This document shows, in pieces, positions 6,273 to 63,722 of a stretch of 64,000 nt of DNA. Each line of letters starts with the position of its first letter. Position 1 is the first letter of the stretch. Both the position numbers and the translations under genes were made by a program. The DNA lies in the NCBI GenBank assembly GCA_910574865.1, contig CAJTDN010000009.1:62001-126000 (forward strand). The letters run 5' to 3'. This DNA is from Lachnospiraceae bacterium (GTDB lineage: Bacteria > Bacillota > Clostridia > Lachnospirales > Lachnospiraceae). Below the pieces are notes generated by a model. The model worked only from the letters and a program-made list of their open reading frames with translations, was not told where the DNA came from and made no database searches.

Positions 6273-6537
6273 AAGGAATGCGGAGTACATTCGCACGTAA
6301 GCGCCCGAAGGACAGGCGCTAAGTGCTTATAGTAAGGAAACTCCGCATGACTAGGCTCGTGGAGGACCTCGCCAAGGAATGCGGAGTACATTCGCACGTA
6401 AGCGCCCGAAGGACAGGCGCTAAGTGCTTATAGTAAGGAAACTCCGCATGACTAGGCTCGTGGAGGACCTCGCCAAGGAATGCGGAGTACATTCGCACGT
6501 AAGCGCCCAAAGGACAGGCGCTAAGTGCTTATAGTAA
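6273..6537. repeat. Tandem 101-bp structured repeat, about 2.6 copies
   Basis: Copies begin at 6273, 6374 and 6475 (AAGGAATGCGGAG); the third stops at the start of the next gene. Copies 1 and 2 look identical and copy 3 differs by CCCAAAGG instead of CCCGAAGG. Each unit holds a GCGCC...GGCGC hairpin, and ACTCCGCAT of one unit can pair with ATGCGGAGT of the next. The period is not a multiple of three, so it is not coding. It lies inside the operon, so it would be transcribed. Confidence 0.9.
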
Positions 6538-6550
6538 GGTGGAGAAGAAA

Positions 6551-36498: not shown

Positions 36499-36571
36499 GG
36501 GCGTGTAGCTCAGGTGGTAGAGCACTTGACTTTTAATCAAGTTGTCCGGGGTTCGAATCCCCGCACGCTCA
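36499..36571 (+). tRNA. tRNA-Lys(TTT)
   Basis: Acceptor GGGCGTG/CACGCTC with one G-T pair, anticodon loop CTTTTAA (TTT), T-loop TTCGAAT. It is the last tRNA before the ICE integrase and so the probable integration site. Confidence 0.96.
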
Positions 36572-36576
36572 TGAAG

Positions 36577-36622
36577 GAAAAAGAGCCGTAATCCTTGGAA
36601 AGAGAGGGTTGCGGCTCTTTTT
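36577..36622 (+). terminator. Terminator of the tRNA operon
   Basis: AAAAAGAGCCG and CGGCTCTTTTT form an 11-bp stem with A and T runs. Confidence 0.88.
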
Positions 36623-36722: not shown

Positions 36723-37832
36723 TCATAACGTTATCGCGATGTTTATCTTTTCCTGCACGGCCTCTTTTTTTTCGTCCAGGTGCGCGTATACTTCCATGAT
36801 CATCTTGATGTCGGAATGCCCCATCAGTTCCACGGCCTTTTTCTGGCTGATGCCGGAATAGTAGAGCATGGTGCAGTAGTTATGCCGGAAAAGGTGTGCC
36901 GTCAGCCCGGTGATGGGTTGCGCCCCGGTAATTTTTTCTTGCTTCGTCGTGACGGCATCGTTCATCTTTTTGACAATATTCTGCCACATGTATACATACT
37001 GCGTTTTGGAGAGTGTTTCCGTGTGCTTTCCCGGAAAGAGGTAAAAAGTGTCGGTGGACGACAGATAATCCTTCAAGAAGGCCTCCGCATCCTTCGGAAT
37101 GGGCAACGTGCGGTTTCCGGCGTCACTTTTGGCACCGGACTTTATGACGGGGTTGTTTACGTTGAACACGACGGTCTTGTTCACGGTCAACGTCTTTTTC
37201 CGCAGGTCGACATCCGGTTTTGCCAGGGCCAGTGTCTCACCGCGCCGCAGGCCGAAATAGAACAGGAACATGACAAACGCGTGTTCCGTCCGGGTGAGGT
37301 CGGCCTTTTTGAGTGCCTCCTTTTCAAGGTCCGTCAGCGCGCGCTTGTCAGGTTTGTGCCTTTTGGGCAGCGTGACCTTTTTGGCCACGTTTTCATAAAT
37401 CAGCTTGTCATCCACCGCGCTGTTCAGAATCTGGTTCATGGTCATCTTTATGATTTCGCAGGTTCTGGGGTGGTCTTGGTTGTTGTTGATTAACCGTTGC
37501 ACGTCCGAACGCATGATTCTGTCGAGCGGGAGATGCCCAAGTTCGGGCTTTATGTGCGTGTTAATGGCGTTGCTGTACATCGCCATGGTATTTAGTTCCA
37601 CGGTGGCCTTGTAAGTGTCGAGCCAGAGGCTCGCGTAGTCTGCCAAAAGGGTGCCGGACTGCCGAAAAGTCTTGCCCGTCTTAACCTTCATTTTTAATTC
37701 GGCAATCTTGTCGCGCAATCCTTTTTCGGTCTTGGCGGCCAGAAACACGTTGTTCGGCCTGCCGTCTGCCTTGTAGCCGACCATCACCGTGGTCGCGTAC
37801 CGCCCGTCCTTCCTTTTCTTGTACTTTGCCAT
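36723..37832 (-). CDS. int: Tyrosine site-specific integrase of the ICE
   Basis: A 369-residue tyrosine recombinase. ATG 37832 is fixed by GGAGGAGG just upstream; the longer frame to 37922 lacks a site. The N-terminal arm-binding domain (KKRKDGRYATTVMVG), SAM-like core-binding domain and catalytic domain are in order. Catalytic residues are visible in FGLRRGE, HLFRHNY, MGHSD and the Tyr of YAHL. It faces tRNA-Lys, which lies 150 bases beyond its stop, and would integrate and excise the element. Base composition is lower in GC than the host genes. Confidence 0.93.
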   Translation of the reverse strand: MAKYKKRKDGRYATTVMVGYKADGRPNNVFLAAKTEKGLRDKIAELKMKVKTGKTFRQSGTLLADYASLWLDTYKATVELNTMAMYSNAINTHIKPELGHLPLDRIMRSDVQRLINNNQDHPRTCEIIKMTMNQILNSAVDDKLIYENVAKKVTLPKRHKPDKRALTDLEKEALKKADLTRTEHAFVMFLFYFGLRRGETLALAKPDVDLRKKTLTVNKTVVFNVNNPVIKSGAKSDAGNRTLPIPKDAEAFLKDYLSSTDTFYLFPGKHTETLSKTQYVYMWQNIVKKMNDAVTTKQEKITGAQPITGLTAHLFRHNYCTMLYYSGISQKKAVELMGHSDIKMIMEVYAHLDEKKEAVQEKINIAITL

Positions 37833-37867
37833 GGTATCCTCCTCCTTAAAATTGGGTATAAAAATAA

Positions 37868-37952
37868 CATCCAGACAAAAACTGATGTTCTGGTTGACTG
37901 GATGCCCCCGAAGATGATACAATGGTTTCGTGGTCGTGCATCACCTTCGGGG
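37868..37952. promoter_or_regulatory. Two hairpins upstream of int
   Basis: CATCCAG...CTGGATG (37868-37904) and CCCCGAAG...CTTCGGGG (37906-37952) stand in tandem in front of the integrase. They may act as a leader attenuator or block read-through into int. Confidence 0.45.
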
Positions 37953-42122: not shown

Positions 42123-42725
42123 ATGGACAGGACGAAGATTGATGAAGAATTCGTGAAGGAGGTTCTCGGAAACCACGGGGGGCTTTTGCAGGACATACAC
42201 AAGCGGGTTCTGCTGCTTTACGAGGAACTGTCGGATACCGGCTCCCTCATCCAAGCGGCGGCAATCAAGAAGATGGAGCTTGGAAAAATCGGGGGAGGGT
42301 CCCGCAACGTGCGTGACCTGACGGACGTGATGCTGGTACACCAGCGTCTGGTCAAGGACCGGGAACGGGAGGTCTACGCGGGGCTCATGAGCCTTATGGA
42401 CGAGGAGGAGGCGGTCAACCGCGTGTGGTGCTGCTTCAACTCCTTGCCAGACAAGGAGCGCGGGTATCTGGAGCGGCTGTACGTCATCGGCGAGCCGTAC
42501 AAGGCGGTAGAGCGTTCGAGCGGCGTGAGCCACCGGGCGTTCGAGCAGGCCAGGGCCAGGGCGATGGGGGAAATCATGAGGACGTATGACAGCGACCTGG
42601 CGAACGTCGAGATCATCGCCCGGGGCAGGACGAGCCCGGGAAACCGTGGCAGGAACGGGAAGGGAAAGAAGAGAAACAAAGGAGACGATGACGGGACCTA
42701 TAGGCAGTTGGAGCTGAACTTGTAA
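42123..42725 (+). CDS. Sigma-70 region-4-like ICE regulator
   Basis: A 200-residue protein with a helical N-terminal half and a sigma region 4/ArpU-like HTH at about 110-160 (LPDKERGYLERLYVIGEPYKAVERSSGVSHRAFEQ). The tail is basic and Gly-rich (RGRTSPGNRGRNGKGKKRNK). AGGAGCAGG precedes the ATG. Such proteins control late gene transcription in phages and ICEs. It is 47 bases ahead of ssb. Confidence 0.65.
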   Translation: MDRTKIDEEFVKEVLGNHGGLLQDIHKRVLLLYEELSDTGSLIQAAAIKKMELGKIGGGSRNVRDLTDVMLVHQRLVKDREREVYAGLMSLMDEEEAVNRVWCCFNSLPDKERGYLERLYVIGEPYKAVERSSGVSHRAFEQARARAMGEIMRTYDSDLANVEIIARGRTSPGNRGRNGKGKKRNKGDDDGTYRQLELNL

Positions 42726-42772: not shown

Positions 42773-43195
42773 ATGAACAAGGTGGTATTGGTGGGGAGGC
42801 TCACGAGGGAGCCGGAAGTGCGCTACTCGCAAGGGGAGAGGCAGACGGCGGTCGGCAGGTACACGCTGGCCGTGGACCGAAGGCTCAAGAGGGAAGGCGG
42901 GCAGGAGGTGGACTTCATCCCATGCGTGACGTTCGGGAAAATGGCGGAGTTTGCCGAGAAATATTTCCGCAAGGGGATGCGCGTGTCGGTGTCCGGGCGC
43001 ATCCAGACGGGGAGCTACACGAACAAGGATGGCATCAAGGTGTACACGACGGACGTGTTCGTGGAGGAGCAGGAGTTCGCCGAGAGCAGGGGTGAGCGTC
43101 AGGGAGCGGGAGGGAACGCCCCGGAGGGTGCGGACGCGGAACCCCCGTGGATGGACGTGCCGGAAGGGCTTGACGACGACCTGCCGTTTCATTGA
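42773..43195 (+). CDS. ssb: Single-stranded DNA-binding protein
   Basis: A 140-residue SSB. The OB-fold reads MNKVVLVGRLTREPEVRY, then FIPCVTFGKMAEFAEKYFRKGMRVSVSGRIQT. The acidic tip is DDDLPFH, one residue past the usual DDIPF. AAAGGAGAAGAGG lies upstream. It probably protects single strands during ICE transfer and plasmid-like replication. Confidence 0.95.
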   Translation: MNKVVLVGRLTREPEVRYSQGERQTAVGRYTLAVDRRLKREGGQEVDFIPCVTFGKMAEFAEKYFRKGMRVSVSGRIQTGSYTNKDGIKVYTTDVFVEEQEFAESRGERQGAGGNAPEGADAEPPWMDVPEGLDDDLPFH

Positions 43196-43252
43196 CATCT
43201 GTCGGAAGGGGGCGTGGCGGGAACGCCTGGCGCGAGGCCGGCAGGAGTTTAC

Positions 43253-43440
43253 CAGGATAAATCAGGACTGGTCAGAGTTTATCAGAGTTGGTCAGAGCAA
43301 ATCCGAGCTGGTCAGAGTTGGTCAGAACAAATCCGAACTGGTCAGAGTTTATCAGAGCAAGTCCGAGTTCGTCAGAGTTAGCCAGAGCAAATCCGGGCTG
43401 GTCAGGGTTTGCCGAATCTGACCAGGCTTGCCAGGACGAA
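43253..43440. repeat. 10-bp phased repeat array, about 18 units
   Basis: Units of the form NNNGTCAGAG or CAAATCCGAG follow each other every 10 bases from ACTGGTCAGAG to about 43420, degenerating at the right end. The spacing is close to one DNA turn. It lies between ssb and the winged-helix/TubZ pair. The array is an open frame in one phase, but without start site. Most likely a protein-binding site such as a centromere. Confidence 0.8.
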
Positions 43441-43580
43441 TCCGGGTCGGGGTTGTAAGGATGGCCGTGGGATTGCGGGAAAAGGGCGGGCGTGCAGGAG
43501 GCCGGAAGGGCTTTGCCGGGATTTGCAAGGAAAGGTCACGGTTCGGTCAGGTCCGCGCGAAAACGTGACGAGGAAGGACG

Positions 43581-43859
43581 GTGGGGGTTTTGAAGCCGGG
43601 AATCAACAGGCTGGGCTTCCTCATCCTCTCAATCCTCCGGGGTAGCGGGGCGACGGGGCGGTTGTCGTCGATGACCGTCCGCGAGATCGCCTCGGCCGAG
43701 GATTGCGGGATGAAGGAAAACACGATATTCAAGAAAATAAGGGAGTTCGAGCGTTCTGGCCACGTGGGCCGGGGGCTGAAGGAAGGCCACGCCGACACGT
43801 TCTTCATCACGGCGGACGGTCTCGGGCTTCTGGAAGAGGAAAGGGGCAAGGAATCATGA
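43581..43859 (+). CDS. Winged-helix protein, TubR-like partition adaptor candidate
   Basis: A 92-residue protein that starts at GTG 43581 after GAGGAAGGA (a TTG at 43590 is possible). It has a helix-turn-helix with recognition helix KENTIFKKIREFERSGHV and a wing (GLKEGHADTFFITADGLGLL). The stop overlaps the TubZ-like start. TubR is likewise a small winged-helix protein encoded directly upstream of TubZ. Here the role is inferred from position and fold; sequence identity to TubR is not evident by eye. Confidence 0.6.
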   Translation: MGVLKPGINRLGFLILSILRGSGATGRLSSMTVREIASAEDCGMKENTIFKKIREFERSGHVGRGLKEGHADTFFITADGLGLLEEERGKES

Positions 43860-44890
43860 GGAACAAGATATCGTTCGTGGCGGTCGGGCAGGCCGCCGGA
43901 AACATCGGGAGGCTGCTTGAGCGGAAAGGGTACGCGGTGCTTTACGTGAACACCTCGCGGGAGGACCTGGACACGCTGGAGGACGCGAAGTTCAAGTACC
44001 ACATCCCGCACGGGGAGGGGTGCAACAAGGACCGCAGGAAGGCGAAGCGGCTCGTCATCGACGACTTCGACAGCATCGCCGCCGAGATTGACTCGAAGGT
44101 CAGGGCGGAAATGCTCTTCGTCATTTTCGCCAGCGGGGGCGGGACCGGCTCGGGGGCCGGGCCGATGCTCACGGATCTGCTGGTGGACGAGGGCAGGAGC
44201 GTGGGGGTCATCACGATCCTCCCGGCGCGGGGCGAGAGCGTGAAGTCGCACATCAATTCCTACGAGTGCTTCACGGAGCTGACCGCCATCGCGGGGACCG
44301 GCGCGTGCTTCGTCATTGACAACGAGAACGGGAACAAGATGGAATTAAACGGCACGTTCGTCAATTCCCTGGCGGCGTTCCTGGAAATCCCTGAAAAGCA
44401 CAAGAGCGTGAAGGGGAACGTTGACAAGGCGGAAATCATGGAGACGCTGCGGGCGCACGGCATGGCCGTCGTCGTGCGCGGCAGGGGGAAGGAAAGCGCG
44501 GGGGTCATCCAGGCGGCGGGGCACGGCGCGCTGGCCGCCCCGGAACCCGACCGGGCGGTGAAGTACATCACGGCCTCCCTGGCCGGGAACGTGAAAATGG
44601 CGGACCTGGAAAAGGCGTTCGGCACGCCGATTGACAACTTCCAGACGTTCAACGACGAGGAGACGGTCTGCTGCGTATCGGGGCTTTCCTACCCGCAGTC
44701 CCGCCTGGACGAGGTTTACCGCAAGGTGGAGGAGAACAAGGAGCTCATCAAGCGGAACCTGGCGGCCACGCGGGAGACCGGGCTGAAGGGAGGCGTGAAC
44801 TTCCTGGAGGAAATGGAGGAACCCCGGAAGGAAAAGACGGAGGCGAAACCGAAATCAAAGCGGGACATCATGAGCAAGTACCTGGTGTGA
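43856..44890 (+). CDS. FtsZ/TubZ-like tubulin-family GTPase
   Basis: A 344-residue tubulin superfamily GTPase. The nucleotide loop T1 reads GQAAGN (11-16), the tubulin signature is GGGTGSGAGP (94-103) and the T7 synergy loop is NVDKAE (188-193), where FtsZ has NxDxxD, so Glu replaces the catalytic Asp. The C-terminal tail is basic (KSKRDIMSKYLV). ATGA overlap with the winged-helix gene indicates coupling. It lacks the FtsZ C-terminal peptide, and its size matches short TubZ proteins of plasmids and phages. It probably forms dynamic filaments that segregate ICE copies. Confidence 0.82.
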   Translation: MRNKISFVAVGQAAGNIGRLLERKGYAVLYVNTSREDLDTLEDAKFKYHIPHGEGCNKDRRKAKRLVIDDFDSIAAEIDSKVRAEMLFVIFASGGGTGSGAGPMLTDLLVDEGRSVGVITILPARGESVKSHINSYECFTELTAIAGTGACFVIDNENGNKMELNGTFVNSLAAFLEIPEKHKSVKGNVDKAEIMETLRAHGMAVVVRGRGKESAGVIQAAGHGALAAPEPDRAVKYITASLAGNVKMADLEKAFGTPIDNFQTFNDEETVCCVSGLSYPQSRLDEVYRKVEENKELIKRNLAATRETGLKGGVNFLEEMEEPRKEKTEAKPKSKRDIMSKYLV

Positions 44891-45096
44891 GGCCGCCCGG
44901 ACGGGAAAAAGGACCAGGACGGGAGGTCTCACGGGCAAGGAAAGCGCGGGCGGGACGTGCCGAACGGGGACTAAAACGCCACGGGTGGAAAAGGAACGGG
45001 AATAAGGATTGAGAATAAGAACCGGAAACCCGAATTGGAAATAAGGATTGGCATAAGGCCGGAAGAAATCCGGTTTCAGGAAAGGAGGCGTTGCCG

Positions 45097-47656: not shown

Positions 47657-48988
47657 ATGGCAGATTTTTCTTATTATTATGGTGACGACGCGGAACAATT
47701 CAACTACTTTCGCCTGCCGAAGCTGCTGGTGAGGGACAAGCGGTTCGAAGGGCTGTCGAGCGAGGCGAAGATACTGTACGGGGTGCTGCTTGACAGGATG
47801 GCACTCTCGGCGCAGAACGGGTGGCTGGACGACGACAACCGGATCTACATAATATACACGACGCGGGAGGTCATGCGGGAGTTTGGCTGCAGCGAGCGCA
47901 AGGCCATCACGCTGATGGGCGAGCTGGACACGAGAAAGGGCATCGGTCTCATTGAGAAGAGACGGCAGGGATTGGGGAAGCCGAACATCATCTATGTCAA
48001 GAATTTCAATTCCGTCATCCGGGATGATGCCGGGGGTGGCACGTCCGGGGAGACGGGGGCGCGTGGTGGCGGGAGCATGGGTGCCGGATTAGGTTCGGGA
48101 AACGACGCGCTTCGGGAAACCCGCGTTGCCGGTGACGGCTCCGGGCAGGAACGGCGGGGGCATGGTGACTGGCCGGAACAAGGATGGCGGTGTGCCGGGG
48201 ACGGGACATTCCGGAAACCGGACGCGTGCCGGGTGATACCGGGCCTGCCGGATGCGGGCGTGGTGGCCATGGAGGGCATGGACGTGGAGACGGGTCTGCC
48301 GAATCCGCCGTGGCCGGACGCCGCCCTGCGGGAAAGGATGCCGGAGGAAACCGTCAAAAAAGAGGGCGAAAAGGGGGAGGGGGAACCCTGCGGTTTCCAG
48401 ACATGCAAGAATCTGCAGGTCAAGACATGCAAGAACGTGCAGGTCAAGACATGCAAAAACGTGCAGGTCAGTAATGAGACTGATAATAATGAGACTGACA
48501 TAAAATATAATATATCTATCAATCCATCCAATCAGGATATACAAGGTGACGATGAAGGAGGGATGGACAGAAGCTCCGTGCTGGAGGGGTTCAAGGAGAA
48601 ACTGGGATACGACGCCCTGGTCTGCGACTCGCCGGGTGACAAGCACCTGGTTGACGACTTGTTCCAGATACTGGCCGACGCTTACTGCCATGGCGGCAGG
48701 AGCCAGCGTGTCGGCGGCGGGGACGTGCCGACGGCAGACGTGCGGGAACGTCTCTCACGGCTGACGGCGGGGCACGTGAGGTACGTCCTGGCGGCCTTGA
48801 AGGACAACACGACGAAGGTCAGGAACATCAGGACGTACGTGCTGACAAGCCTATACAACGCGCCCGTGACGATGGGGCTGTACTACCACAACGCGGTGGC
48901 GCACGACATGGCCGCCGGGGCATGGAGGGAGGAAGAAGGTGAGAACAATAAAATTATCTGTAATAAAAGTGATATTGGGTGGTTATAG
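47657..48988 (+). CDS. repA: RepA_N-family replication initiator
   Basis: A 443-residue initiator. The N-terminal RepA_N winged-helix domain (YFRLPKLLVRDKRFEGLSSEAKILYGVLLDRM... REVMREFGCSERKA) is followed by a variable linker with 24-bp repeats (CKNVQVKT units, residues 249-271). The C-terminal DnaD-like domain reads VRYVLAALKDNTTKVRNIRTYVLTSLYNAPVTM. Such proteins start theta replication of Firmicutes plasmids and many ICEs. GAAGGGG precedes the ATG. The presence of an initiator suggests the excised ICE replicates. Confidence 0.9.
   Translation: MADFSYYYGDDAEQFNYFRLPKLLVRDKRFEGLSSEAKILYGVLLDRMALSAQNGWLDDDNRIYIIYTTREVMREFGCSERKAITLMGELDTRKGIGLIEKRRQGLGKPNIIYVKNFNSVIRDDAGGGTSGETGARGGGSMGAGLGSGNDALRETRVAGDGSGQERRGHGDWPEQGWRCAGDGTFRKPDACRVIPGLPDAGVVAMEGMDVETGLPNPPWPDAALRERMPEETVKKEGEKGEGEPCGFQTCKNLQVKTCKNVQVKTCKNVQVSNETDNNETDIKYNISINPSNQDIQGDDEGGMDRSSVLEGFKEKLGYDALVCDSPGDKHLVDDLFQILADAYCHGGRSQRVGGGDVPTADVRERLSRLTAGHVRYVLAALKDNTTKVRNIRTYVLTSLYNAPVTMGLYYHNAVAHDMAAGAWREEEGENNKIICNKSDIGWL
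48401..48470. repeat. 24-bp tandem repeat inside repA, candidate origin iterons
   Basis: ACATGCAAGAA..TGCAGGTCAAG units begin at 48401, 48425 and 48449. RepA_N replicons commonly have their origin in this central part of repA, so these are candidate initiator-binding sites. An AT-rich stretch follows at 48476-48545. Confidence 0.7.
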
Positions 48989-50344: not shown

Positions 50345-50464
50345 ATTTTATATCACAAACACGGCACGCGGGGCGGGACAAGGATTCCGGCATGCGGGGC
50401 CGCGAGGACGGACGTGCCACGTTTCGGCACGTCCCAAGGAGTCGGAAAGACAAGGAGGAAATCA

Positions 50465-53400
50465 ATGAGAAGATATAAGAAGCTGACGGCATTCCTGCTG
50501 GCGCTTTCGCTGGCGGCGTGCTCGTTTTTGCAGCCCGCGGTGTCGTTCGCGGCCGAGGGCAAAACGGAACGGGCGGCGCGGGAGGTCGAGGACGCGGGTT
50601 CCTGGGACGAGGGCGCGTCACAAGTGATAGGGGCGGCCGGGCAGGAAGAAACGAAACAAGACGGCGCGAACCAAAATGACATGAAACAGGACAACGTGAA
50701 ACAAGAAAGCACCGGGCAGGGAGAGGCCGACGCGGAAAGCGCGGGACAAGGAACCGGCCAGGACGGCGCGAAGACGGGCCAGGAAGCGGACACACCGAAC
50801 CAGGCGGGTGTCGGAACGGACAGTGACAACGGGAACCGGGACACGGAAAGCCGTGGGACGGCGCGAACGTCCGGAAACGGAACCGGGACTGAAAACGCGA
50901 CCGGGAACGAGGCAGGAACGGAACCGGGCGCGGGTGAAAGCGCGGAAACGTTACCCGCCCCGGCGACGGAGGGCGAGGACAACTTAGACCCCGGCGAGGA
51001 CACCGGGTTCGCCGGGACGCCGGGCGAGCTGGAAACGTACGGGCCGGGACTCGCGTCGTCCATGGCAACCCTGGGGCTTCGGCTGCTGGGCAGGGCCAGG
51101 GGCTGGGATCCCGGAAGCCTGGGGCTTACGGGCACGGTGTACGCCAGGGCCTACAACGAGGGCGGTTCCACGCTGGAGGACGCGTTCGGCTTCAAGAAGT
51201 CCGACCTGCTGGCGTGGATGCACGAACAGGCGACCACGGGGTACTACCTCGGCACCGTTTATGACGGCGGCGACAACCGCAACCCGAACGGTGACGCGAG
51301 CTACAACGGGCGTGACGTGAGGCCGGGGCAGGTCGGCCTGAACTGCACGGGCTTCGTGTGGCACATGCTGATGAAGGCCGGGGCGCGTGTCACCGGCGAG
51401 AGCGACGGGAGGAACACGGACTTCGTGGGCAACACCGACGCGCTGCTGGCGGCGGGAGCCAACGTGGACAACTCGGGGGCGAACCCGACGGTGCCGGGCG
51501 AGTCCGGCTGGGTGGCGTTCCTTTCGGGCTCCAACGTGGAGTACAAGACCTACGTGTCCGACAGCTGGGAGGACATGGTGAAGGTGCTGGTGGCCGACGA
51601 CTACTGGGACGCGGGTGACGTCATCTGGACGTGGGACCTGAAAAACCCGCTGGTTTCCGGCTCGGGCGGCAACAACGGCAAGTTCCCGAACGCGGACGTG
51701 GCGCAGAGGCTGTTCTTCACGGAAGGGATGTACGGGCATCCGGCATCGGGACTTAGCTGGGGCAACAGCGCGCACAACCACATCCTGCTTTACTGCGGGA
51801 CGGACTTCGCGAGGTACTGCGACTCGGCGACGAACAACTACGCGCAGTATGTGAGCGGCGTGAGCGACCAGCTGGTGTGGCACTCTTCGGACGTGCACTT
51901 CAATTACCAGACGTGGCAGCCGGACGGTTCCACGCCGTGGAACCAGATCACGAGCATTTTCCCGAAGGAGAATGGCGGGCCTTACGCGGTGACAATTGTA
52001 AAGACCGGAGGGCCGACGGGAAGCCTGAACCTGAAGAAGACGTCGTCCAATAGGACGCTGACCGACGGGAATAGCTGCTATTCCCTCGAGGGCGCGACCT
52101 ACCTGGTATTTCGCTCGGAGGCGGACGCGAGGAACGGCGCGGAGGGTCTGGCGGTGGCGACGCTCGTGACCGACGGGGACGGGAACAGCAACACGGTGGA
52201 AATGGAGCCGGGAACCTACTACGTGAAGGAGACGAAGGCGTCCAAGGGCTACGCGCTGGACAGGACCATCCACCAGGTGACGGTGGAGAGCGGCCAGACC
52301 GCGACCGTGCAGTCGGTGGAAAAGCCACAAAGTGACCCAGTACGTGTTTTGTTAGGAAAGGTAGACCGGGAAACGAACCGAAACAAGCCACAAGGGAGCG
52401 CAAGCCTCGCGGGGGCGGAATTCACCGTGAAATATTATGGTGGATTGTACGATATCGACCCTGCAACGCAGGGGCAGACATCGGTTAGGCAATGGATAAT
52501 CAGGACGGATGAAGATGGATATTGCAGGCTTAGTGATGGATATAAGGTATCTGGGGATGCGTTTTATTATCAATCTAACGGAGATACTACACTTCCCCTT
52601 GGAACCATTACCATTCAAGAAACCAAGGCTCCGACGGGCTATCTTATTAATAACGAGGTATTCGTCCGTAAGATTACGTCGGAAGGAAATGTGGAAGGTG
52701 TCAACACCTACAACCAGCCAATCATCCCGGAGACCCCGCAGAAGTTACGCATCCGCCTGAAAAAGGTGGACGCGGAAACCGGGAAAGGCGAGGCGCAGGG
52801 AACGGGGACGCTTTCCGGGGCGGTGTACGGTGTGTACGACGCATCCGGGACGCAGGTGGACGAGCTGACGACCGACGCGAAGGGAGAGGCGGTCTCGAAG
52901 GAACTGCCGCTCGGCAACTACACGGTGAAGGAGACGAAAGCCCCGACGGGTTACCTGATTAACGGCACGACCCACAAGGTGGACGGTGCGGTGCCGAAGG
53001 ACACGACGACGCGGGTGTTCGAGTACGGCGTGACGAGCGGGGAAGTGCCGCAGAAGGTGAAAATCAACCTGAAAAAGGTGGACGCGGAGACCGGGAAGGG
53101 CGAGCCGCAGGGAACGGCCACGCTCGCGGGCGCGGTGTACGGCGTGTACGACGCATCCGGGACGCAGGTGGACGAGCTGACGACCGATGCGCGGGGCGAG
53201 GCGAGTTCCAGGGAGCTGCCGCTCGGCAATTACACGGTAAAGGAGACGAAAGCCTCCAACGGTTATTTAATTGACGGCACGACCCACAAGGTGGACGGGG
53301 CGGTCCCGAAGGACACGACGACGCGGGTGTTCGAGTACGGCGTGACGAGCGGGGAAGTGCCGCAGAAGGTGAAAATCAACCTGAAAAAGACGGACGCGGA

Positions 53401-56400
53401 AACCGGGAAGGGTGAACCGCAAGGTGCGGCCAAGCTTGAGGGCGCGGTGTACGGTGTGTACGACGCATCCGGGACGCAGGTGGACGAGCTGACGACCGAC
53501 GCGAAGGGCGAGGCGGTCTCGAAGGAGCTGCCGCTCGGCAATTACACAGTGAAAGAGACGAGAGCCTCAAACGGTTACCTGGTTGACCAGGCGGCGCACG
53601 CGGTGAACGGCGCGAAACCGAAGGACACGACGACGCGGGTGTTCGAGTACAAGGTGGGAAGCGGCGAGGACGTGATCCGCGGTGACGTGGAAATCGTCAA
53701 GTTCATCGAGAACCTGGACGCGGACGACGACACCATCCAGGGGCTCGCGGGAATCGAGTTCACGTTCACGTCCAAGACGACTGGCGAGAAAGTGCTGGTA
53801 ATCAGGACGGACAAGAACGGGTTCGCGACGACGGCCTCGAAGGAAAACCCGAGGGGGACGCTGGTGTTCGACACCTACCGGGTGGAGGAGACGAAGCACC
53901 CGGAGAACGTGAAGGCCATCAAGCCGTTCGACGTGACCGTTTCCGAAGAGGGCGTGACGCTCAAGGGCATTTACAAGGAAGACAAGCTGATCGTCAGCCC
54001 GGTGACGGTCGTGAAGAAGGACAAAAGCTCCGGAAAGACAATCCCGGCGGCGAACGTGACGTTCCGGCTGCTGGACGAAAACAAGGAGCCGGTCACGATG
54101 ACGACGCGCTACCCGGACAAGGTGGTGCATGAGACGTTCAAGACGAATGATGATGGGCAGTTCACGTTCCCGGACGTGCTGACCTATGGCACGTACTACC
54201 TGGAGGAGCTGGACGCGCCGGAAGGGTACCTGAAAGGGGAACTCCTGGAATTCAAGGTGACGGAAGGCTCGACGTGGGAGGAACCGCTCATCGTGGAATA
54301 CGCGGACGAGAACGCCATGGGCAGGATCCGCGTCACGAAGACGGATTCCGAGACCGGGGAACCGGTCGGCGGCGCGACGTTCGAGATTGTCGCGGCAGAG
54401 GACGTGGTGACGCCGGAAGGCACGACGCGCGTGGAAAAAGGCGGCGTGGCAGGAACCATGACGACGGGAAAGGACGGGAAGGCGGAGTCGGACGACCTCT
54501 TCCTCGGAAAGTACGTCGTGCGCGAGACAAGGCAGCCGGACGGATTCATCCTGGACGGGACGGAGCACGGGGTGGAGCTTTCCTACGCGGGGCAGGACGT
54601 ACCCGTGGTATACGAGTCCGTGAAAGCGGAAAATAAGCCGGCGCGGCTCTTCATTTTCAAGATGGACGGGGAGACAAAGGAACCGCTGGCCGGCGTGGAA
54701 TTCGAAATCTGGAACAAGGACATGTGGCCGGACGGCACCGGCAACGGGGACGGCGCGGACGGCGACGAAGGTACGGATGAAGCTGACGCGGCTGATGACG
54801 GCGCGGTTGACCCGGGCATGGCGGTCTTCCCGAGGTTCGTGACCGACGAGAACGGGCGCATCGAGGTTTCCTACCTCGCGCCGGGGACGTACTTGGTCCG
54901 CGAGGTGGAGACGCTACCGGGATACGTGCTGGACGAGACCGTGCACGAGTTCACGGTGGACGAGGACGGCCTGATTGACGGCAAGGACGTGGGCATCCGG
55001 GTAATCGAAAACACGAGGACGAAGCTCATCGGCACGACCGCCGTGTCGGCGGACACCGGCACGCACGAGGGCGTCCCGGGCGAGGAAGTGACCATCATCG
55101 ACACGGTGGCGTTCGAAGACCTGCAGCCGGGCGAGGAATACACGGTGCGCGGCAGGCTGATGGACGCGCGGACGGGCGAGCCGTTCCTGGTAAACGGTGA
55201 GGAAGTGACGGCGGAGACGAAATTCGTGCCAAAGGAAGGCAGTGGAAGCGTCGACGTCGTTTTCACGTTTGACGGGAGGGAGTTGCTGGACAAGAAAATC
55301 GTGGTGTTCGAGAAGGCGTACGTGCGGGGTGTGGAAATCCTCTCGCACGAGGACACCGGGGACGAGGACCAGACGGTGGAATTCCCCAGGCCGGAAATCG
55401 GCACGACGGCGGCGGACGCGGAGACCGGGAGCCATGAGGCCGTGGCGGCGGGCGAGGTGACCATCGTCGACACCGTGAAATACGAGGGGCTGGTCATCGG
55501 CCAGGAGTACACGGTGAAAGGCACGCTGATGGACAAGGCGACGGGAGAAAAACTGCTCGTTGACGGAAAGGAAGTGATGTCGGAGGCGAAGTTCGTGCCG
55601 GAAGAGAAGGACGGAAGCGTGGACATCACGTTCACGTTCGACGCAAGCGGGCTTGCGGGCCACAAGGTGGTCGCGTTCGAGAGCGTTTCCGTGAAGGGCG
55701 TGGAGGTGGCCGTGCACGCGGACATCGAGGACGGCGACCAGACGGTCGAGTTCCCGGAGCCTGAAATCAGGACGACGGCGACGGACGCGGAGACCGGGAG
55801 CCACGAGGCCGTGGCGGCGGGCGAGGTGACCATCGTCGACACCGTGAGGTATGAAAACCTGGTCACCAGCCACGAGTACACGGTGAAGGGAGTCCTGATG
55901 GACAAGGCGACGGGCGAAAAACTGCTCGTTGACGGAAAGGAAGTGACGTCGGAGGCGAAGTTCGTGCCGGAAGAGAAGGACGGAAGCGTGGACATCACGT
56001 TCACGTTCGACGCAAGCGGGCTTGCGGGCCACAAGGTGGTCGCGTTCGAGAGCGTTTCCGTGAAAGGCGTGGAAGTGGCCGTGCACGCGGACATCGAGGA
56101 CGACGGCCAGACGGTCAGGTTCCCGGAGCCGGAAATCGGGACGACGGCGGTGAACGCGGAGACGGGGACGCACGAGGCGGCGGCCACGCGGGAAGTGACC
56201 ATCGTCGACACCGTGAGGTATGAAAACCTGGTCACCGGCCACGAGTACACGGTGAAGGGAGTCCTGATGGACAAGGCGACGGGCGAAAAGCTGCTCGTTG
56301 ACGGAAAGGAAGTGACATCGGAGGCGAGGTTCACGCCGGAAGAGAAGGACGGGAGCGTGGACGTCACGTTCACGTTCGACGCGAGGGGGCTTGAAGGGAC

Positions 56401-57460
56401 GAAGGTGGTCGCCTTTGAAAGCCTGCACGTGAAGGACGTGGAGGTGGCCGTACACGCGGACATCGAGGACGAGGATCAGACGGTCGAGTTCCCCGAGCCG
56501 GAAATCGGCACGACGGCGGTGAACGCGGAGACGGGGACGCACGAGGCGGCGGCCACGAAGGAAGTGGCCATCGTCGACACCGTGAAGTATAAGAACCTGG
56601 TCATCGGCCACGAGTACACGGTGAAGGGCACGCTGATGGACAAGTCGACGGGCGAAAAACTGCTCGTTGACGGCAAGGAAGTGACATCGGAGGCGAGGTT
56701 CACACCGGAAGAGAAGGACGGAAGCGTGGACGTCACGTTCACGTTCGACGCGAGGGGGCTTGAAGGGACGAAGGTGGTCGCCTTTGAAAGCCTGCACGTG
56801 AAGGACGTGGAGGTGGCCGTGCACGCGGACATCGAGGATGATGACCAGACGGTGGAATTCCCCGAACCGGAAATCGGCACGACGGCGGTGGACAAGGAGA
56901 CGAAGACGCACGAGGCCGTGGCGGCAAGGAAGGTGACCATCGTGGACACGGTGGCGTACAAGAACTTAGTCGTCGGCCAGGAATACACGGTGAAGGGTGT
57001 CCTGATGGATAAGGCGACCGGCAGGGAGTTGTTCGTCGGCGGCAGGAAAGTGACATCGGAAGCGAGCTTCACACCGAAAGAAAAGGACGGGAGCGTGACG
57101 GTGGAATTCACGTTCGACGCGAGAGGTCTTGCAGGCCACAAGGTGGTCGCCTTTGAAAGCCTGTACGTGAAAGACGACGAGGTGGCCGTGCACGCGGACA
57201 TCGAGGATGACGGTCAGACGGTGGAAATCAAGGAACCCGAGAAACCGCCCGTCCCGAAAACGGGGGACGAAGGAAACGCTCTGCCGTTCGCGGCGGCGTT
57301 GATGGCGGGCTCTCTCGCGGCACTGGCCGGCGGGGCTTACGCGTGGAAACGCGGGAGGAAAGGAGGGAAGCCGGGAAACCCGGAGACGGAAAACACGCCC
57401 GACGGGAAAAACGACAAGGACGGCGCGGCCGGTGAAAACGGGGCCGGCGGGACAAAGTGA
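50465..57460 (+). CDS. Giant sortase-anchored surface protein with NlpC/P60-like, Cna-B and VaFE domains
   Basis: A 2331-residue surface protein; ATG 50465 follows AAGGAGG. A signal peptide (1-33) and an acidic Gln/Gly/Thr linker (to about 200) precede an NlpC/P60-like domain with Cys in GLNCTGFVW (about 293) and His in SAHNHILLY (about 438). Cna-B/SpaA collagen-adhesin folds follow, including three near-identical 104-residue units from about 760 to 1065. Six VaFE modules (about 123 residues each, 1522-2258) precede the sorting signal VPKTG (about 2262), a membrane helix and a hydrophilic tail. Cna-B and VaFE folds typically carry internal covalent bonds. It probably promotes mating contact or adhesion by ICE-bearing cells. 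Confidence 0.9.
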   Translation: MRRYKKLTAFLLALSLAACSFLQPAVSFAAEGKTERAAREVEDAGSWDEGASQVIGAAGQEETKQDGANQNDMKQDNVKQESTGQGEADAESAGQGTGQDGAKTGQEADTPNQAGVGTDSDNGNRDTESRGTARTSGNGTGTENATGNEAGTEPGAGESAETLPAPATEGEDNLDPGEDTGFAGTPGELETYGPGLASSMATLGLRLLGRARGWDPGSLGLTGTVYARAYNEGGSTLEDAFGFKKSDLLAWMHEQATTGYYLGTVYDGGDNRNPNGDASYNGRDVRPGQVGLNCTGFVWHMLMKAGARVTGESDGRNTDFVGNTDALLAAGANVDNSGANPTVPGESGWVAFLSGSNVEYKTYVSDSWEDMVKVLVADDYWDAGDVIWTWDLKNPLVSGSGGNNGKFPNADVAQRLFFTEGMYGHPASGLSWGNSAHNHILLYCGTDFARYCDSATNNYAQYVSGVSDQLVWHSSDVHFNYQTWQPDGSTPWNQITSIFPKENGGPYAVTIVKTGGPTGSLNLKKTSSNRTLTDGNSCYSLEGATYLVFRSEADARNGAEGLAVATLVTDGDGNSNTVEMEPGTYYVKETKASKGYALDRTIHQVTVESGQTATVQSVEKPQSDPVRVLLGKVDRETNRNKPQGSASLAGAEFTVKYYGGLYDIDPATQGQTSVRQWIIRTDEDGYCRLSDGYKVSGDAFYYQSNGDTTLPLGTITIQETKAPTGYLINNEVFVRKITSEGNVEGVNTYNQPIIPETPQKLRIRLKKVDAETGKGEAQGTGTLSGAVYGVYDASGTQVDELTTDAKGEAVSKELPLGNYTVKETKAPTGYLINGTTHKVDGAVPKDTTTRVFEYGVTSGEVPQKVKINLKKVDAETGKGEPQGTATLAGAVYGVYDASGTQVDELTTDARGEASSRELPLGNYTVKETKASNGYLIDGTTHKVDGAVPKDTTTRVFEYGVTSGEVPQKVKINLKKTDAETGKGEPQGAAKLEGAVYGVYDASGTQVDELTTDAKGEAVSKELPLGNYTVKETRASNGYLVDQAAHAVNGAKPKDTTTRVFEYKVGSGEDVIRGDVEIVKFIENLDADDDTIQGLAGIEFTFTSKTTGEKVLVIRTDKNGFATTASKENPRGTLVFDTYRVEETKHPENVKAIKPFDVTVSEEGVTLKGIYKEDKLIVSPVTVVKKDKSSGKTIPAANVTFRLLDENKEPVTMTTRYPDKVVHETFKTNDDGQFTFPDVLTYGTYYLEELDAPEGYLKGELLEFKVTEGSTWEEPLIVEYADENAMGRIRVTKTDSETGEPVGGATFEIVAAEDVVTPEGTTRVEKGGVAGTMTTGKDGKAESDDLFLGKYVVRETRQPDGFILDGTEHGVELSYAGQDVPVVYESVKAENKPARLFIFKMDGETKEPLAGVEFEIWNKDMWPDGTGNGDGADGDEGTDEADAADDGAVDPGMAVFPRFVTDENGRIEVSYLAPGTYLVREVETLPGYVLDETVHEFTVDEDGLIDGKDVGIRVIENTRTKLIGTTAVSADTGTHEGVPGEEVTIIDTVAFEDLQPGEEYTVRGRLMDARTGEPFLVNGEEVTAETKFVPKEGSGSVDVVFTFDGRELLDKKIVVFEKAYVRGVEILSHEDTGDEDQTVEFPRPEIGTTAADAETGSHEAVAAGEVTIVDTVKYEGLVIGQEYTVKGTLMDKATGEKLLVDGKEVMSEAKFVPEEKDGSVDITFTFDASGLAGHKVVAFESVSVKGVEVAVHADIEDGDQTVEFPEPEIRTTATDAETGSHEAVAAGEVTIVDTVRYENLVTSHEYTVKGVLMDKATGEKLLVDGKEVTSEAKFVPEEKDGSVDITFTFDASGLAGHKVVAFESVSVKGVEVAVHADIEDDGQTVRFPEPEIGTTAVNAETGTHEAAATREVTIVDTVRYENLVTGHEYTVKGVLMDKATGEKLLVDGKEVTSEARFTPEEKDGSVDVTFTFDARGLEGTKVVAFESLHVKDVEVAVHADIEDEDQTVEFPEPEIGTTAVNAETGTHEAAATKEVAIVDTVKYKNLVIGHEYTVKGTLMDKSTGEKLLVDGKEVTSEARFTPEEKDGSVDVTFTFDARGLEGTKVVAFESLHVKDVEVAVHADIEDDDQTVEFPEPEIGTTAVDKETKTHEAVAARKVTIVDTVAYKNLVVGQEYTVKGVLMDKATGRELFVGGRKVTSEASFTPKEKDGSVTVEFTFDARGLAGHKVVAFESLYVKDDEVAVHADIEDDGQTVEIKEPEKPPVPKTGDEGNALPFAAALMAGSLAALAGGAYAWKRGRKGGKPGNPETENTPDGKNDKDGAAGENGAGGTK

Positions 57461-59661: not shown

Positions 59662-62079
59662 ATGGCAGTATTCAACGGGAACCAGGCGTTCGCCGCGAGG
59701 CGGAAGAAGACGCAGTCAATCTGCAGGCTGCCGCGCAACGTGCGGGAGGCACTGAATGTTGACAGGGCGTACAAGAACGGGACGTTCAAGATCGAGCCGA
59801 AGGGCAGACAGGCGGTATACGACAGGTGCTACGTGTTCGAGGATGTCAACTACGCCAACAAGAACGAGGGGGAGAAGCGGAAGTTTTTAACGGAGCTGAT
59901 GACGTTTTTAAATTCCATGGACACGGAGTTCAAGATCACGCTGGCGAACCAGTACCAGGACACGGGCGAGTTCCTGGCATCCATCCGGAATGAGAGGAAC
60001 GGGGAAGAATACCCGGAAATCGCGGAGGGAATCCGCAGGTGGCAGGAGGACAACCTGGAGGACGCGAACCCCGGGGTGCGTATCATGCGTTACCTGACGG
60101 TCACATGCCGGGCGGACTCGGAGACGGACGCGCGGGTGTACTTCAACGCGCTGGAGGGGAACCTGGCGTACGCGTTCGAGGGATGGGGGAGCGAGATCCG
60201 ACGCATGGACGCGGCGGAACGCCTCGGGACGCTGCAGTCCGTCATCCAGCCGGGAAGGGAGGCGGAGCAGGAATTCCTCCACGGCCCGGAGGACGGGCGC
60301 GGGAACTGGAAAAACGACGTGATGCCGAGGAGCATCCGCACGTACAAGAACTTCATGGTCATGGGCGACACGCACGTGTCCGTCCTCTACGCGTCCAAGT
60401 ACCGAAAGACGATTGACTCGGACAGCGTGATCCGGAGCCTTTCCGGCACGTCGTACCCGTCGCTGGTGACGATGGACCTGGCACCGGTGGAGGCGGAGGT
60501 CGTCGGCGACAAGTTGTCCGCCGTGGAAATGAATAACGAGCGGGAAATCGCGGAGGAAATGGAGAAGAAGCAGAAGGCGGGCATCCCGGCCATGCAGCCC
60601 TCGCCGACGAAGCTGAAGCGCAAGAAGGAAATCGGGGACTACATCCGGAACGTGGACTCGAACGACGAGAGCGGGTACTTCATGAACCTGCTCGTGGTGG
60701 TCACCGCACCGGACGAGGACACGCTGGCCGCAAGGGTCGGCGAGGCGGTGGCGGCCGGGCGCAAGGAGGGGGTCATCCTGGAGACCTGCGACTACCGGCA
60801 GCTGAAGGCGTGGAACACCGCGCTCCCCATCGGCGGGCGGCACGTGGACTGCATGCGCTTCCTGCTCACCTCGTCGCTGGTCGCGTTCCAGCCGTACCAC
60901 GCGCAGGACGTGACCGAGCCCGGCGGGCAGATGCTGGGGATGAACCGGACGACGTGGCGGTTCATCGTCGCGGACCGGAAGCGGCTCCCGAACCCGCACG
61001 GCCTCGTCGTGGGGCATACCGGGAGCGGGAAGTCGATGTACATCAAGCTGACGGAACTGTCCCAGACGCTGGTGGCGACGGACGACGACATCTTCGTCAT
61101 CGACCCGCAGAACGAGTTCCAGGACGTGATTGGGCAGTTCGGCGGGGCGTATTTCGACCTGACCCCGAAGAGCGGGACGTACCTGAACGGTTTCGAGGTG
61201 CCGCCGGAGGTGTGGAAGGGGACGGCCACCGTGTGGCGGGAGTTCGTGGCGAGGCAGACGGAATACGCGAAGACCCTCTGCGCCGCGTCGATGAAAAACA
61301 TCCGCGTGACGCAGGAGCATGACGCGGTGGTCAGCCGCTGCACGGAGCGGATGTTCTCGGAGGCCGCGCGGCGAAAGGGGGGCGGGCGGCAACCGACGCT
61401 TTCGTGGCTTAGGGAAGAGGTGAAAAAGGAACTTTCCAAGGTGGACAACACGCACGACGAGGAAATCGTGCGGGCCATTTACAACTGCCTGGAGGAATAC
61501 ACGGAAGGGAGCTGCGACATGCTCTCGAGGCCGTCGAACATCCGCACGGACCGGCGGCTGGTGGGCATCGGGATGGCGAACGTGCCGGAAAACAACTGGG
61601 AGGCCATCATGGTGACGTTCCTGCATTACCTTTCGCAGAGGATGGACTACAACAAGCAGTTCCAGCGGGCGACGCACCTCATCGTGGACGAGGGGCAGGT
61701 CGTCTCGGAAAAGCCGGGGAGCGCGAGGCAGCTCTATGACGCGGTCATGACGTTCAGGAAGTTCGGCGGGATCGTGACCATCGCCATGCAGAACGTGGCG
61801 GCGGCATTGCGGAGTCCGACGCTCGTGGATTTGTTTTCCAACTGCTCGTACAAGTGCTTCCTCGACCAGGGCGGCGTGGACGCGCAGAGCCTGGCGGCCA
61901 TCCAGGAATTTTCCGACAAGGAGTTCCGGGCACTCTCGTCGGGAAGGCCGGGCGAGGGGGTCATGGTGTGGAACAAGAAGGTGCTTTTGTTTGACGCGAA
62001 GATTCGAAGGGACAACCCGCTTTACGGGGCGTTCACCACGAACTTCCACGAGGAGGCACGGGAAGGGGGGACGTCATGA
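59662..62079 (+). CDS. VirB4-family conjugation ATPase
   Basis: An 805-residue ATPase powering type IV secretion. Walker A GHTGSGKS is at about 451-458, Walker B with acidic pair in HLIVDEGQV at about 672-680, and the following QNVAAALRS arm is typical. The N-terminal half binds neighbours in the channel. It starts 86 bases after prgI and overlaps the CHAP gene by four bases. Part of the mating machine of this ICE. Confidence 0.93.
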   Translation: MAVFNGNQAFAARRKKTQSICRLPRNVREALNVDRAYKNGTFKIEPKGRQAVYDRCYVFEDVNYANKNEGEKRKFLTELMTFLNSMDTEFKITLANQYQDTGEFLASIRNERNGEEYPEIAEGIRRWQEDNLEDANPGVRIMRYLTVTCRADSETDARVYFNALEGNLAYAFEGWGSEIRRMDAAERLGTLQSVIQPGREAEQEFLHGPEDGRGNWKNDVMPRSIRTYKNFMVMGDTHVSVLYASKYRKTIDSDSVIRSLSGTSYPSLVTMDLAPVEAEVVGDKLSAVEMNNEREIAEEMEKKQKAGIPAMQPSPTKLKRKKEIGDYIRNVDSNDESGYFMNLLVVVTAPDEDTLAARVGEAVAAGRKEGVILETCDYRQLKAWNTALPIGGRHVDCMRFLLTSSLVAFQPYHAQDVTEPGGQMLGMNRTTWRFIVADRKRLPNPHGLVVGHTGSGKSMYIKLTELSQTLVATDDDIFVIDPQNEFQDVIGQFGGAYFDLTPKSGTYLNGFEVPPEVWKGTATVWREFVARQTEYAKTLCAASMKNIRVTQEHDAVVSRCTERMFSEAARRKGGGRQPTLSWLREEVKKELSKVDNTHDEEIVRAIYNCLEEYTEGSCDMLSRPSNIRTDRRLVGIGMANVPENNWEAIMVTFLHYLSQRMDYNKQFQRATHLIVDEGQVVSEKPGSARQLYDAVMTFRKFGGIVTIAMQNVAAALRSPTLVDLFSNCSYKCFLDQGGVDAQSLAAIQEFSDKEFRALSSGRPGEGVMVWNKKVLLFDAKIRRDNPLYGAFTTNFHEEAREGGTS

Positions 62080-63722
62080 GGATCAGGGAGACGAGGAGAT
62101 GGCTCTCCACCGCGAGGGGAAGTGCGTTCCGGGAATCCGGGCGGGAAATCCGGGAGTCCGGGCAGGGAATCCGGGAATCCAGGACCCGCATGGGGACGGC
62201 CACCGCCGAAAACGACGGCACGGGGAGGGCGGGAAGGCGCGGGGAACCAGCGCGCGCCGACCCGGCGGACTTCCTGGACGGTGACGAACGCCGGGCATGG
62301 GAGGCACTGCCAGAACAGGAACGGGAGGAGTACCTGCGGCGCGGGATGGAAGAAGCCGAATTCGACATATCAGAAACCGACCCGGAAGATGCCTGGAACC
62401 TGGAACCGGACGAAGGGAGCCTGGTGTTTTCTGGTGGCGGGGGCACAAACGTTTACGGGAATGCCGGAAACCGACCGGGTGACATGGAAGGGCTACAAGG
62501 CGAATGGTGGGACGACCCGCACGGGGAGGACGGCGAAGGGTACGCGAAAGGATGCCGGAGCGGCGTGCGTTCCGGGACATACGGGTTCCGGGGAAACGGG
62601 GGATATCACGGGACGGACGGAAGCGGGGAAACCGGGGCGGATGTTTGTGGCGGGAACGGCACGGAAGGGTACGTAGGAAGCGGCGGCCCCACGGGCGGGC
62701 AGGGGATTCCGGATTCCGGCATCGGGCAGACGGCGGCACGGACACAAGGCGGCCTGGCGGAAGGAACCGCGCAAGGGGCGCGGGCGGCGGGGGACGCGGC
62801 ATCGGGCGGCGCGAGCCTGGGGATACGTGCCGCGAGAAAGGCGGCGGAGGCGTTCCGGGAATCGCTGGAATCCGGCGGGGACGAAGGCGGCCGGGAGGGA
62901 ACGTGGAACAAGGCCGCAGGGGGGACGGGCAAGGCGCCCGTGGGTTCCTTGGGAAAAGCCGTGTCCATGGCGGCCTCCATGGTGGGCGGGATGTTCGCAG
63001 CCGCAGCCGTGGCGTTTTTCCAGGCGGCGGTGTCGATGGTGTCCTCGCTGATTGCCATCCTGACACCGGTCATCGTGGCCGTCACCACCATCGCGACCAT
63101 CGTGGGCGTCATCGTGGCGGCGGTGACCACGCCGGTGACGACCGCAGGGGGCGGGGGCGCGGGGCTGGTGGAAACGGCGGTCAGCCAGGAGGGGAACACC
63201 GACGGGAGCCGCTACTGGGCCTACACGATGGGAAGCCGGTTCGTGGACGGGGCGTCCACGCCGTGGTGCGCGTGCTTCGTCTCATGGTGCGCGAACGAGC
63301 GGGGATACATTGACGAGGGGATTTTCCCGAAGTCCGGGTCGGTCGCCGCCTATAGGAACTTCTACCAGTCGAGGGGGCTGTTCCGGGACGCGGCCGGGTA
63401 CGTGCCGAGGCAGGGCGACCTGATCGTCTTCGGGAACGACTCGCACATCGGCATCGTCCAGTACGTGGAGGGCGGCAGGGTCATAACGATAGAGGGCAAC
63501 GCCTCGAACGCGGTGCACACGAGGAGCTACACGCTGTCGAACCCGCGCATCAGGGGCTACTGCACGCCGGACTACCCGCCGGAGGAGACGGAGGACGGGA
63601 ATCAGACGGAGACGGAACCGGAAGGGAACAACTCGGGAGCCGGTGAGGAAACCGCGCGGGACGAAGCCGGGGGCGAGACCGGCGGGACAAGGAGGAGACA
63701 TGAAGGAAACCAAATTTATTGA
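62076..63722 (+). CDS. Transfer-associated CHAP-domain peptidoglycan hydrolase
   Basis: A 548-residue protein, start in an ATGA overlap with virB4. A repetitive Arg/Glu/Ser N-terminus (RESGREIRESGQGIRES), a long Gly-rich stretch and a hydrophobic pair (about 295-360) precede a CHAP domain with Cys in PWCACFVSWC (about 397) and His in DSHIGIVQY (about 454). VirB1/CD1107-like hydrolases open the wall for the channel. The acidic end may lie outside the cell. Confidence 0.85.
   Translation: MRIRETRRWLSTARGSAFRESGREIRESGQGIRESRTRMGTATAENDGTGRAGRRGEPARADPADFLDGDERRAWEALPEQEREEYLRRGMEEAEFDISETDPEDAWNLEPDEGSLVFSGGGGTNVYGNAGNRPGDMEGLQGEWWDDPHGEDGEGYAKGCRSGVRSGTYGFRGNGGYHGTDGSGETGADVCGGNGTEGYVGSGGPTGGQGIPDSGIGQTAARTQGGLAEGTAQGARAAGDAASGGASLGIRAARKAAEAFRESLESGGDEGGREGTWNKAAGGTGKAPVGSLGKAVSMAASMVGGMFAAAAVAFFQAAVSMVSSLIAILTPVIVAVTTIATIVGVIVAAVTTPVTTAGGGGAGLVETAVSQEGNTDGSRYWAYTMGSRFVDGASTPWCACFVSWCANERGYIDEGIFPKSGSVAAYRNFYQSRGLFRDAAGYVPRQGDLIVFGNDSHIGIVQYVEGGRVITIEGNASNAVHTRSYTLSNPRIRGYCTPDYPPEETEDGNQTETEPEGNNSGAGEETARDEAGGETGGTRRRHEGNQIY

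Follow-up and report, generated by a model that had tools for sequence, protein, structure and literature searches.

The window, i.e. the whole stretch of 64,000 nucleotides analysed here, carries at 43581–44890 the overlapping gene pair tubR-tubZ, preceded at 43250–43409 by 16 consecutive 10-bp repeats. The pair resides on a conjugative element inserted in the chromosome (ICE), which extends beyond the window onto the continued contig (L032). The relevant features are:

36527–36622, plus strand: attL, 96-bp exact repeat overlapping the 3′ end of a tRNA-Lys gene (36499–36571)
36723–37922, minus strand: tyrosine integrase of the ICE (PF00589, E 3.1e-20)
42123–42725, plus strand: conserved ICE gene with weak sigma-like matches (NCBIfam, E 0.005 and 0.025)
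42773–43195, plus strand: SSB (PF00436, E 2e-29)
43250–43409, plus strand: array 1, putative centromere (tubC-like), 16 units of 10 bp
43581–43859, plus strand: tubR, 92-residue winged-helix protein (PDB 6tey, E 7.5e-5; predicted fold; orthologues)
43856–44890, plus strand: tubZ, 344-residue tubulin-like GTPase (T7 Glu193; basic C-terminal tip RDIMSKYL)
47657–48988, plus strand: RepA_N/DUF6017 replication initiator (PF06970, E 4.9e-28; PF19481, E 6.2e-25)
59662–62079, plus strand: VirB4-type conjugation ATPase (PF19044 P-loop_TraG, E 4e-7)
62076–63722, plus strand: CHAP-domain protein (PF05257, E 7e-10)
67776–67863 (L032:3776–3863 on the continued contig, beyond the window): array 2, 9 cores in the same orientation as array 1

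The ICE measures 40.2 kb between the 96-bp exact repeats at 36527–36622 and 76750–76845 (L032:12750–12845) and is inserted at tRNA-Lys, the 3′ end of which is spanned by the att repeat. It is flanked on the left by tRNAs and housekeeping genes and on the right by a predicted tRNA-Leu and a transporter-like ORF, the latter recognised by eye. The att repeats, the integrase, a relaxase (PF03432, E 1.8e-33), a coupling protein (PF02534, E 2e-55) and VirB4 are all present, and the element is, as judged from its sequence, a complete-looking ICE, which also encodes a LexA-like repressor, MobC and ArdC. The CHAP-domain protein is probably a VirB1-like wall hydrolase of the transfer module. The genes of interest are arranged in the order 42123–42725, SSB, array 1, tubR, tubZ, several small genes and RepA_N. 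A weak 13-bp repeat lies immediately 3′ of tubZ (45001–45051). Elsewhere in the ICE, the gene of a 2348-residue surface protein (adhesin; 50414–57460) with 9 SpaA and 6 T-Q ester stretches contains 369-bp and 312-bp tandem repeats, and a separate tandem array at 64988–65286 (L032:988–1286) consists of 44-, 20- and 24-bp units around AATACGGAACGTGACACGGC. The latter precedes mobC and an 80-residue ORF (L032:1412–1654), which is ribbon-helix-helix-like by eye and has no PHROG match, and is possibly an oriT, iterons or another control site. Outside the ICE, a 101-bp tandem repeat with 2.6 copies and 99% matches is found at 6273–6539.

The loops GQAAGN, GGGTGSGAGP and NVDKAE, on which a previous sequence-only reading of this DNA had based its assignment to the tubulin/FtsZ family, are all present in TubZ. 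The protein exceeds the curated cut-offs of PF00091 (47.2 bits, cut-off 33) and of the TubZ_C_3 family PF22340 (50 bits, cut-off 27). Among PDB sequences, TubZ of phage c-st (4xcq, E 4.5e-31) has an E value 22 orders of magnitude below that of the next match, the best FtsZ reaching 3e-8. The structure model, of modest confidence (mean pLDDT 65.9), has the TubZ fold with c-st TubZ as the nearest solved structure; the identity amounts to about 24% in the structural alignment, and to 26.6% with pBM400 TubZ. An identity as PhuZ was rejected on the basis of the weaker match to phrog_4733 (PhuZ, E 4.4e-11, versus 9.4e-31 for phrog_17961) and of the fold comparison, where Goslar PhuZ occupies rank 42, behind c-st TubZ. 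An identity as cell-division FtsZ was likewise rejected, the equivalog model TIGR00065 scoring 22.9 bits against a cut-off of 295.2; a grouping with cell-division FtsZ lacking a DNA partner, which the sequence-only reading had named as fatal to its proposal, was checked for and not found. A divergent FtsZ acting on host division, for instance by delaying it during transfer, might be suggested by the GTPase domain of the FtsZ/tubulin superfamily and by the host FtsZ being encoded elsewhere, but the equivalog score, the rank of c-st TubZ and the presence of a presumably DNA-binding partner and of repeats leave this reading hardly credible.

The catalytic acid of the T7 loop NVDKAE is Glu193. The motif N[IV]DxAE recurs in 49 of 50 rows of the TubZ clade, including a group of only about 30% identity, the exception being L160 with just 33 residues readable before a stop. 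Moreover, Glu193 is aligned with E200 of c-st TubZ (sequence alignment to the PDB entry), and the catalytic-loop mutant of the latter described in the accessible text of PMC5322520 is E200A. Glu193 is therefore the expected catalytic residue, and the earlier claim that a Glu in place of Asp would affect GTP hydrolysis has to be abandoned, since lowered hydrolysis does not follow from a residue that is normal for the clade. The C-terminal tip RDIMSKYL is invariant across 11 aligned close relatives and follows a variable linker. Compared with six relatives, pN values of 0.11–0.15, with synonymous sites near saturation, indicate strong purifying selection on TubZ, whose loops are intact; the same constraint on amino-acid change led to the rejection of a non-coding reading of the ORFs.

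The 92-residue winged-helix gene joined to tubZ by an ATGA overlap was found as previously described, with a GTG start and the overlap at 43856–43859. Its product matches C. botulinum TubR (6tey) by sequence, and 6tey and pBM400 TubR (4asn) are the two best structures for its predicted fold; the fold predictions proposed earlier as a check thus lead to known TubZ and TubR structures for both proteins. TubR is 61–71% identical to 7 aligned orthologues. Most aligned relatives begin near residue 8 of the 92-residue reading and the true start may therefore lie a few codons downstream of the GTG. A TubR-like ORF accompanies tubZ in 48 of 49 loci, immediately upstream in 45 and one gene further up in 3, while the 49th (L140) is cut off by a contig end; divergent TubR-like ORFs were recognised by eye and in alignment A3, from which L169 was left out. 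On three viral contigs (L143, L144 and L149) a gene of 165–167 residues, with an N-terminal hydrophobic stretch by eye, is inserted between tubR and tubZ. TubY consists of a MerR-type HTH plus a coiled coil. No MerR-type domain was detected by Pfam in 29 ORFs of the ICE, a scan above the size of the smaller ORFs and one that a divergent TubY could escape.

Array 1 keeps a fixed 10-bp register, and all 16 units share a C at position 4 as well as a G at position 6. The phased array formerly delimited as 43253–43440 is thus real, but was drawn slightly too long as it decays beyond 43410. When TCMGRR cores chained at 10-bp steps were sought in runs of at least four, exactly two arrays emerged in the real 144 kb of contig, both inside the ICE, compared to 0 in 20 shuffles of these 144 kb (letters shuffled within 2-kb blocks). 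Array 2 is located about 24 kb downstream of array 1, flanked by the relaxase gene and a DUF5688 gene, and may constitute a second centromere or a TubR-controlled promoter. The units of array 2 and of the relatives conform to a consensus of approximately WATCAGAGTW, the core columns of which are biased towards the core used for gathering them; array 1 is GC-drifted from it, chiefly at positions 1, 2 and 9.

In 10 whole genomes holding close relatives, a three-unit pattern produced 54 hits forming 13 arrays, whereas the same pattern read backwards gave 0 hits in all 10. Twelve of the 13 arrays sit directly upstream of a tubRZ pair, the thirteenth being array 2 of the ICE itself, and all 12 close tubRZ loci of these genomes possess an array. 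Because the genomes were chosen for holding TubZ and the pattern was derived from such arrays, these counts demonstrate conserved placement and specificity rather than a discovery from nothing. An upstream periodicity with z of at least 4, always of 10 or 20 bp, was recorded in 32 of 48 loci, a count that leaves out the cut-off L140 and L172 and treats near-identical loci (e.g. L009 and L136) separately. The 16 loci without clear periodicity within the upstream stretch examined comprise L143, L144 and L149, where this stretch ends short of the region above the extra gene and contains no array, L159 and L161, where periodicity is weak or absent, and 11 rows of about 30% identity. In L157, L158 and L160 the motif is altered and the 10-bp step retained, a pattern to be expected were TubR to co-evolve with its site and to sit on one helix face. 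As a conserved sequence feature, an iterated candidate centromere is present upstream of tubR. Directly 5′ of the array, many relatives (L009, L011, L016 and others) carry a small ORF whose CxxC pairs suggest a zinc ribbon by eye and whose PHROG matches are weak; this ORF was not seen in the ICE.

The position of array 2 in front of the DUF5688 gene and the repression of tubRZ by TubR in known systems (PMC5016525, accessible part) might point to a mainly regulatory module, in which TubR and the repeats control ICE genes (their own operon and, via array 2, the DUF5688 gene), with TubZ persisting as a relic. The purifying selection on TubZ, its intact loops and the steady association of a TubR-like ORF with tubZ speak against this scenario, which we regard as very improbable.

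Besides the ICE copy, 11 close tubRZ loci were found in nine genomes, with TubZ identities of 68–78%. Five of them are accompanied by a terminase (L008 with L089, L009, L011 with L095, L015 and L016), four of these also by portal genes; three (L012, L013 and L014) have a phage-type serine integrase and a replisome organiser and one (G425:C272) a replisome organiser alone, while the context of L010 and G008:C3 was unreadable owing to contig ends or short contigs. The models of the ICE coupling protein, VirB4 and relaxase gave no match in these stretches. The supposition that the close relatives are other ICEs was rejected, the readable contexts being prophages. A search for att repeats of two prophages gave no convincing pair. 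Viral contigs contributed 39 related loci, and among L135–L155 (49–78% identical) a replisome organiser adjoins tubZ in 18 of 21. One genome with two close copies (G008) additionally has a distant TubZ (L205 on C78; 32%) with its own TubR-like ORF.

The GTPase phylogeny, also advised by the sequence-only reading, places TubZ of the ICE in a clade of 14 together with 8 viral and 5 chromosomal rows (100/100). The 54-row tree omits L160 and, like the survey of the T7 motif, L021, L026 and L030, in which no GGGTGSG-type motif was found, as well as the near-copies L012, L144, L164–L168, L170 and L173. Nearest to the ICE protein is L148 (92/97, not starred; long branch), whose locus contains both the large and the small terminase subunit. 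The composition of the clade and the terminases of L148 imply that the ICE TubZ is nested among phage copies, and a temperate phage is most likely the donor of the module. GC3 of tubZ is 0.90 in the ICE versus 0.51–0.62 in six relatives; this difference in codon use together with the constrained amino-acid change argues for a gene that is in use and was probably not captured recently.

A sibling ICE (G340:C29) was detected via the coupling protein; the RepA_N anchor gave mostly other ICE families. Compared with the window ICE, identities are 53% for the coupling protein (T4CP), 58% for VirB4 and 47% for the relaxase. In the sibling, a homologue of 42123–42725 (33% identical) directly precedes parA and is followed by ParA (AAA_31, E 6.5e-33), ParB (ParB_N, E 9.9e-8), a small RepA_N-like ORF and RepA_N. 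No ParA motif occurs anywhere in the window ICE. Among 15 other RepA_N loci, whose neighbourhoods were taken from 21 other matches, 12 exhibit a ParA motif 1.6–2.1 kb upstream of RepA_N, including another RepA_N locus of the window's own genome (L120); L121 and L133 are without the motif, L134 has one 6.7 kb off, and ParA plus ParB were Pfam-checked for L131 only. No 10-bp array was found in the coupling-protein relatives L180–L184 or in G340:C29, within the stretches examined; those of two further relatives, G332 and G395, end before the partition slot. The presence of ParAB in the sibling slot and of ParA before most RepA_N genes implies that a type I partition module has apparently been exchanged for a type III module; the exchange is read from one syntenic sibling, which does not prove its direction, although ParAB is the common state.

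Matches to PF22340 were obtained in 13 of 392 genomes of the order, and the surroundings were read at 11 loci. Seven of these, which belong to a single genus of another family (six genomes), have TubZ beside a RepA_N-type gene, with a coupling protein within the stretch in three and VirB4 signals in four; Pfam checks were performed in G139 and, for VirB4, on a piece in G289. A TubR-like ORF precedes tubZ in all seven (by eye). Six of these TubZ proteins are 33–38% identical to that of the window and branch apart from the ICE/phage clade (97/93). No 10-bp array was found in this lineage, where AT-rich repeats of other periods occur instead. As the single contig G289:C1 spans 2.0 Mb and continues past RepA_N with housekeeping-like genes, its element resides in the chromosome; att repeats were sought in G289 and no convincing pair was seen. 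Elsewhere, the TubZ locus of G405:C45 is associated with a terminase and a serine integrase, tubZ of G079:C17 is split over two frames, and the loci of G405:C70 and G207 could not be placed in an element type. The separate branch and the context of RepA_N and coupling protein argue for tubulin-type modules in at least two lineages of conjugative elements.

An integrated element needs no partition. A partition system is thus unexpected on an ICE, which while integrated is inherited passively with the chromosome, and the module would come into play only once the ICE is excised, an argument made for SXT/R391 in the accessible text of PMC4489591. We consider it probable that the locus represents a type III (TubZRC-type) partition module serving the excised, RepA_N-replicated circular form of the 40.2-kb ICE. 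Its core, a type III partition locus on an ICE, was already proposed in the sequence-only reading and is supported by family and fold of both proteins, by the repeats kept in place, by the ICE borders and transfer genes and by ParAB in the equivalent slot of the sibling. The sequence elements for a TubZRC-type action (cf. PMC7762940, in part) are present, including the C-terminal tip RDIMSKYL. Mechanistically, TubR would coat the helically phased 10-bp repeats with one unit per DNA turn, thereby repressing tubRZ and forming the segrosome. TubZ would assemble into GTP-driven filaments which grip the TubR-DNA complex, probably via the conserved C-terminal tail, and carry the ICE copies apart, so that the excised ICE would not be lost at division before reintegration. 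The occurrence of a phage/plasmid-type filament machine in the slot of an unrelated partition machine suggests that it probably helps the ICE to persist when off the chromosome.

Alternatively, the filaments might position the excised ICE (or a replicating phage genome) at the membrane or mid-cell for replication or transfer instead of partitioning it, by analogy to AlpAC of prophage CGP3 or PhuZ of jumbo phages. In most relatives read, tubRZ stands just 5′ of phage replication genes, array 2 lies downstream of the relaxase gene, and AlpAC supports replication of the circular CGP3 form (PMC4446434, accessible text); however, the module fills the ParAB slot near RepA_N, the second lineage also has TubZ beside RepA_N, and sequence and fold are those of TubZ/TubR and not of PhuZ, which renders pure positioning unlikely for the ICE. 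In the close relatives, mostly integrated prophages, the module could act in DNA handling during lytic growth instead of in partition, and its use may differ there and be nearer to that of AlpAC as portrayed in PMC4446434. For the ICE, partition of the excised circle remains our preferred assignment. A more speculative and rather doubtful extension holds that temperate phages and conjugative elements exchange tubulin-type modules as interchangeable parts, at least two separate lineages of the latter having TubRZ near RepA_N and one having it in the ParAB slot, and that the two ICE arrays let the filaments act on the excised circle; via the distant, co-oriented arrays they could act at two points, for segregation or for delivery to the transfer machinery.

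TubZ is well known in phages and plasmids. The closest system is TubZRC of c-st (TubZ 4xcq/3v3t, TubR 6tey), the best sequence and fold match for both ICE proteins, which shares the winged-helix partner and the Glu at the catalytic T7 position. While c-st is a prophage replicating as a plasmid-like entity (PMC4446434, accessible text), the ICE module is found on a conjugative element in the chromosome, has no detected TubY and displays 10-bp phased repeats plus a distant second array. The plasmids pBtoxis, pBM400 and pBsph of Bacillus/Priestia have the same order of centromere, tubR and tubZ, although their carriers are plasmids and the TubZ rows of pBM400 and B. pumilus, unlike that of the ICE, are without N[IV]DxAE; their centromere repeats can be split into two or three blocks (PMC5016525, in part). 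An ICE partition locus likewise exists with srpMRC of SXT/R391, which is, however, actin-type (type II) and gammaproteobacterial; it cuts the loss of these ICEs and is called, in the accessible text of PMC4489591, the first reported system stabilising a family of ICEs. ParA-ParB of the sibling ICE occupies the same slot, but is based on a Walker ATPase (type I) and not on a tubulin-like GTPase. Finally, AlpAC-alpS of C. glutamicum prophage CGP3 also combines a filament protein, an adaptor and a repeat array on an integrated element; it is actin-like, has 24 promoter repeats and acts after excision (PMC4446434, accessible text).

A type III partition system on an ICE was not found in the published literature searched, which covered few subscription journals and thus gives weak evidence of novelty. 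In one of the papers found, tubZ serves to mark the replicon of a plasmid. New, in this sense, are the repeats kept upstream of tubR in the relatives (mostly prophages) and the second array of the ICE, the nesting of the ICE TubZ among phage TubZ, ParA-ParB in the slot of the sibling, and a separate TubZ lineage beside RepA_N in another genus. If the assignment is true, ICEs use partition machines of types I, II and III, and use them exchangeably, and phages share a common pool of modules with conjugative elements. TubRZ of the ICE would offer a direct test of the dependence of an excised ICE on active segregation.
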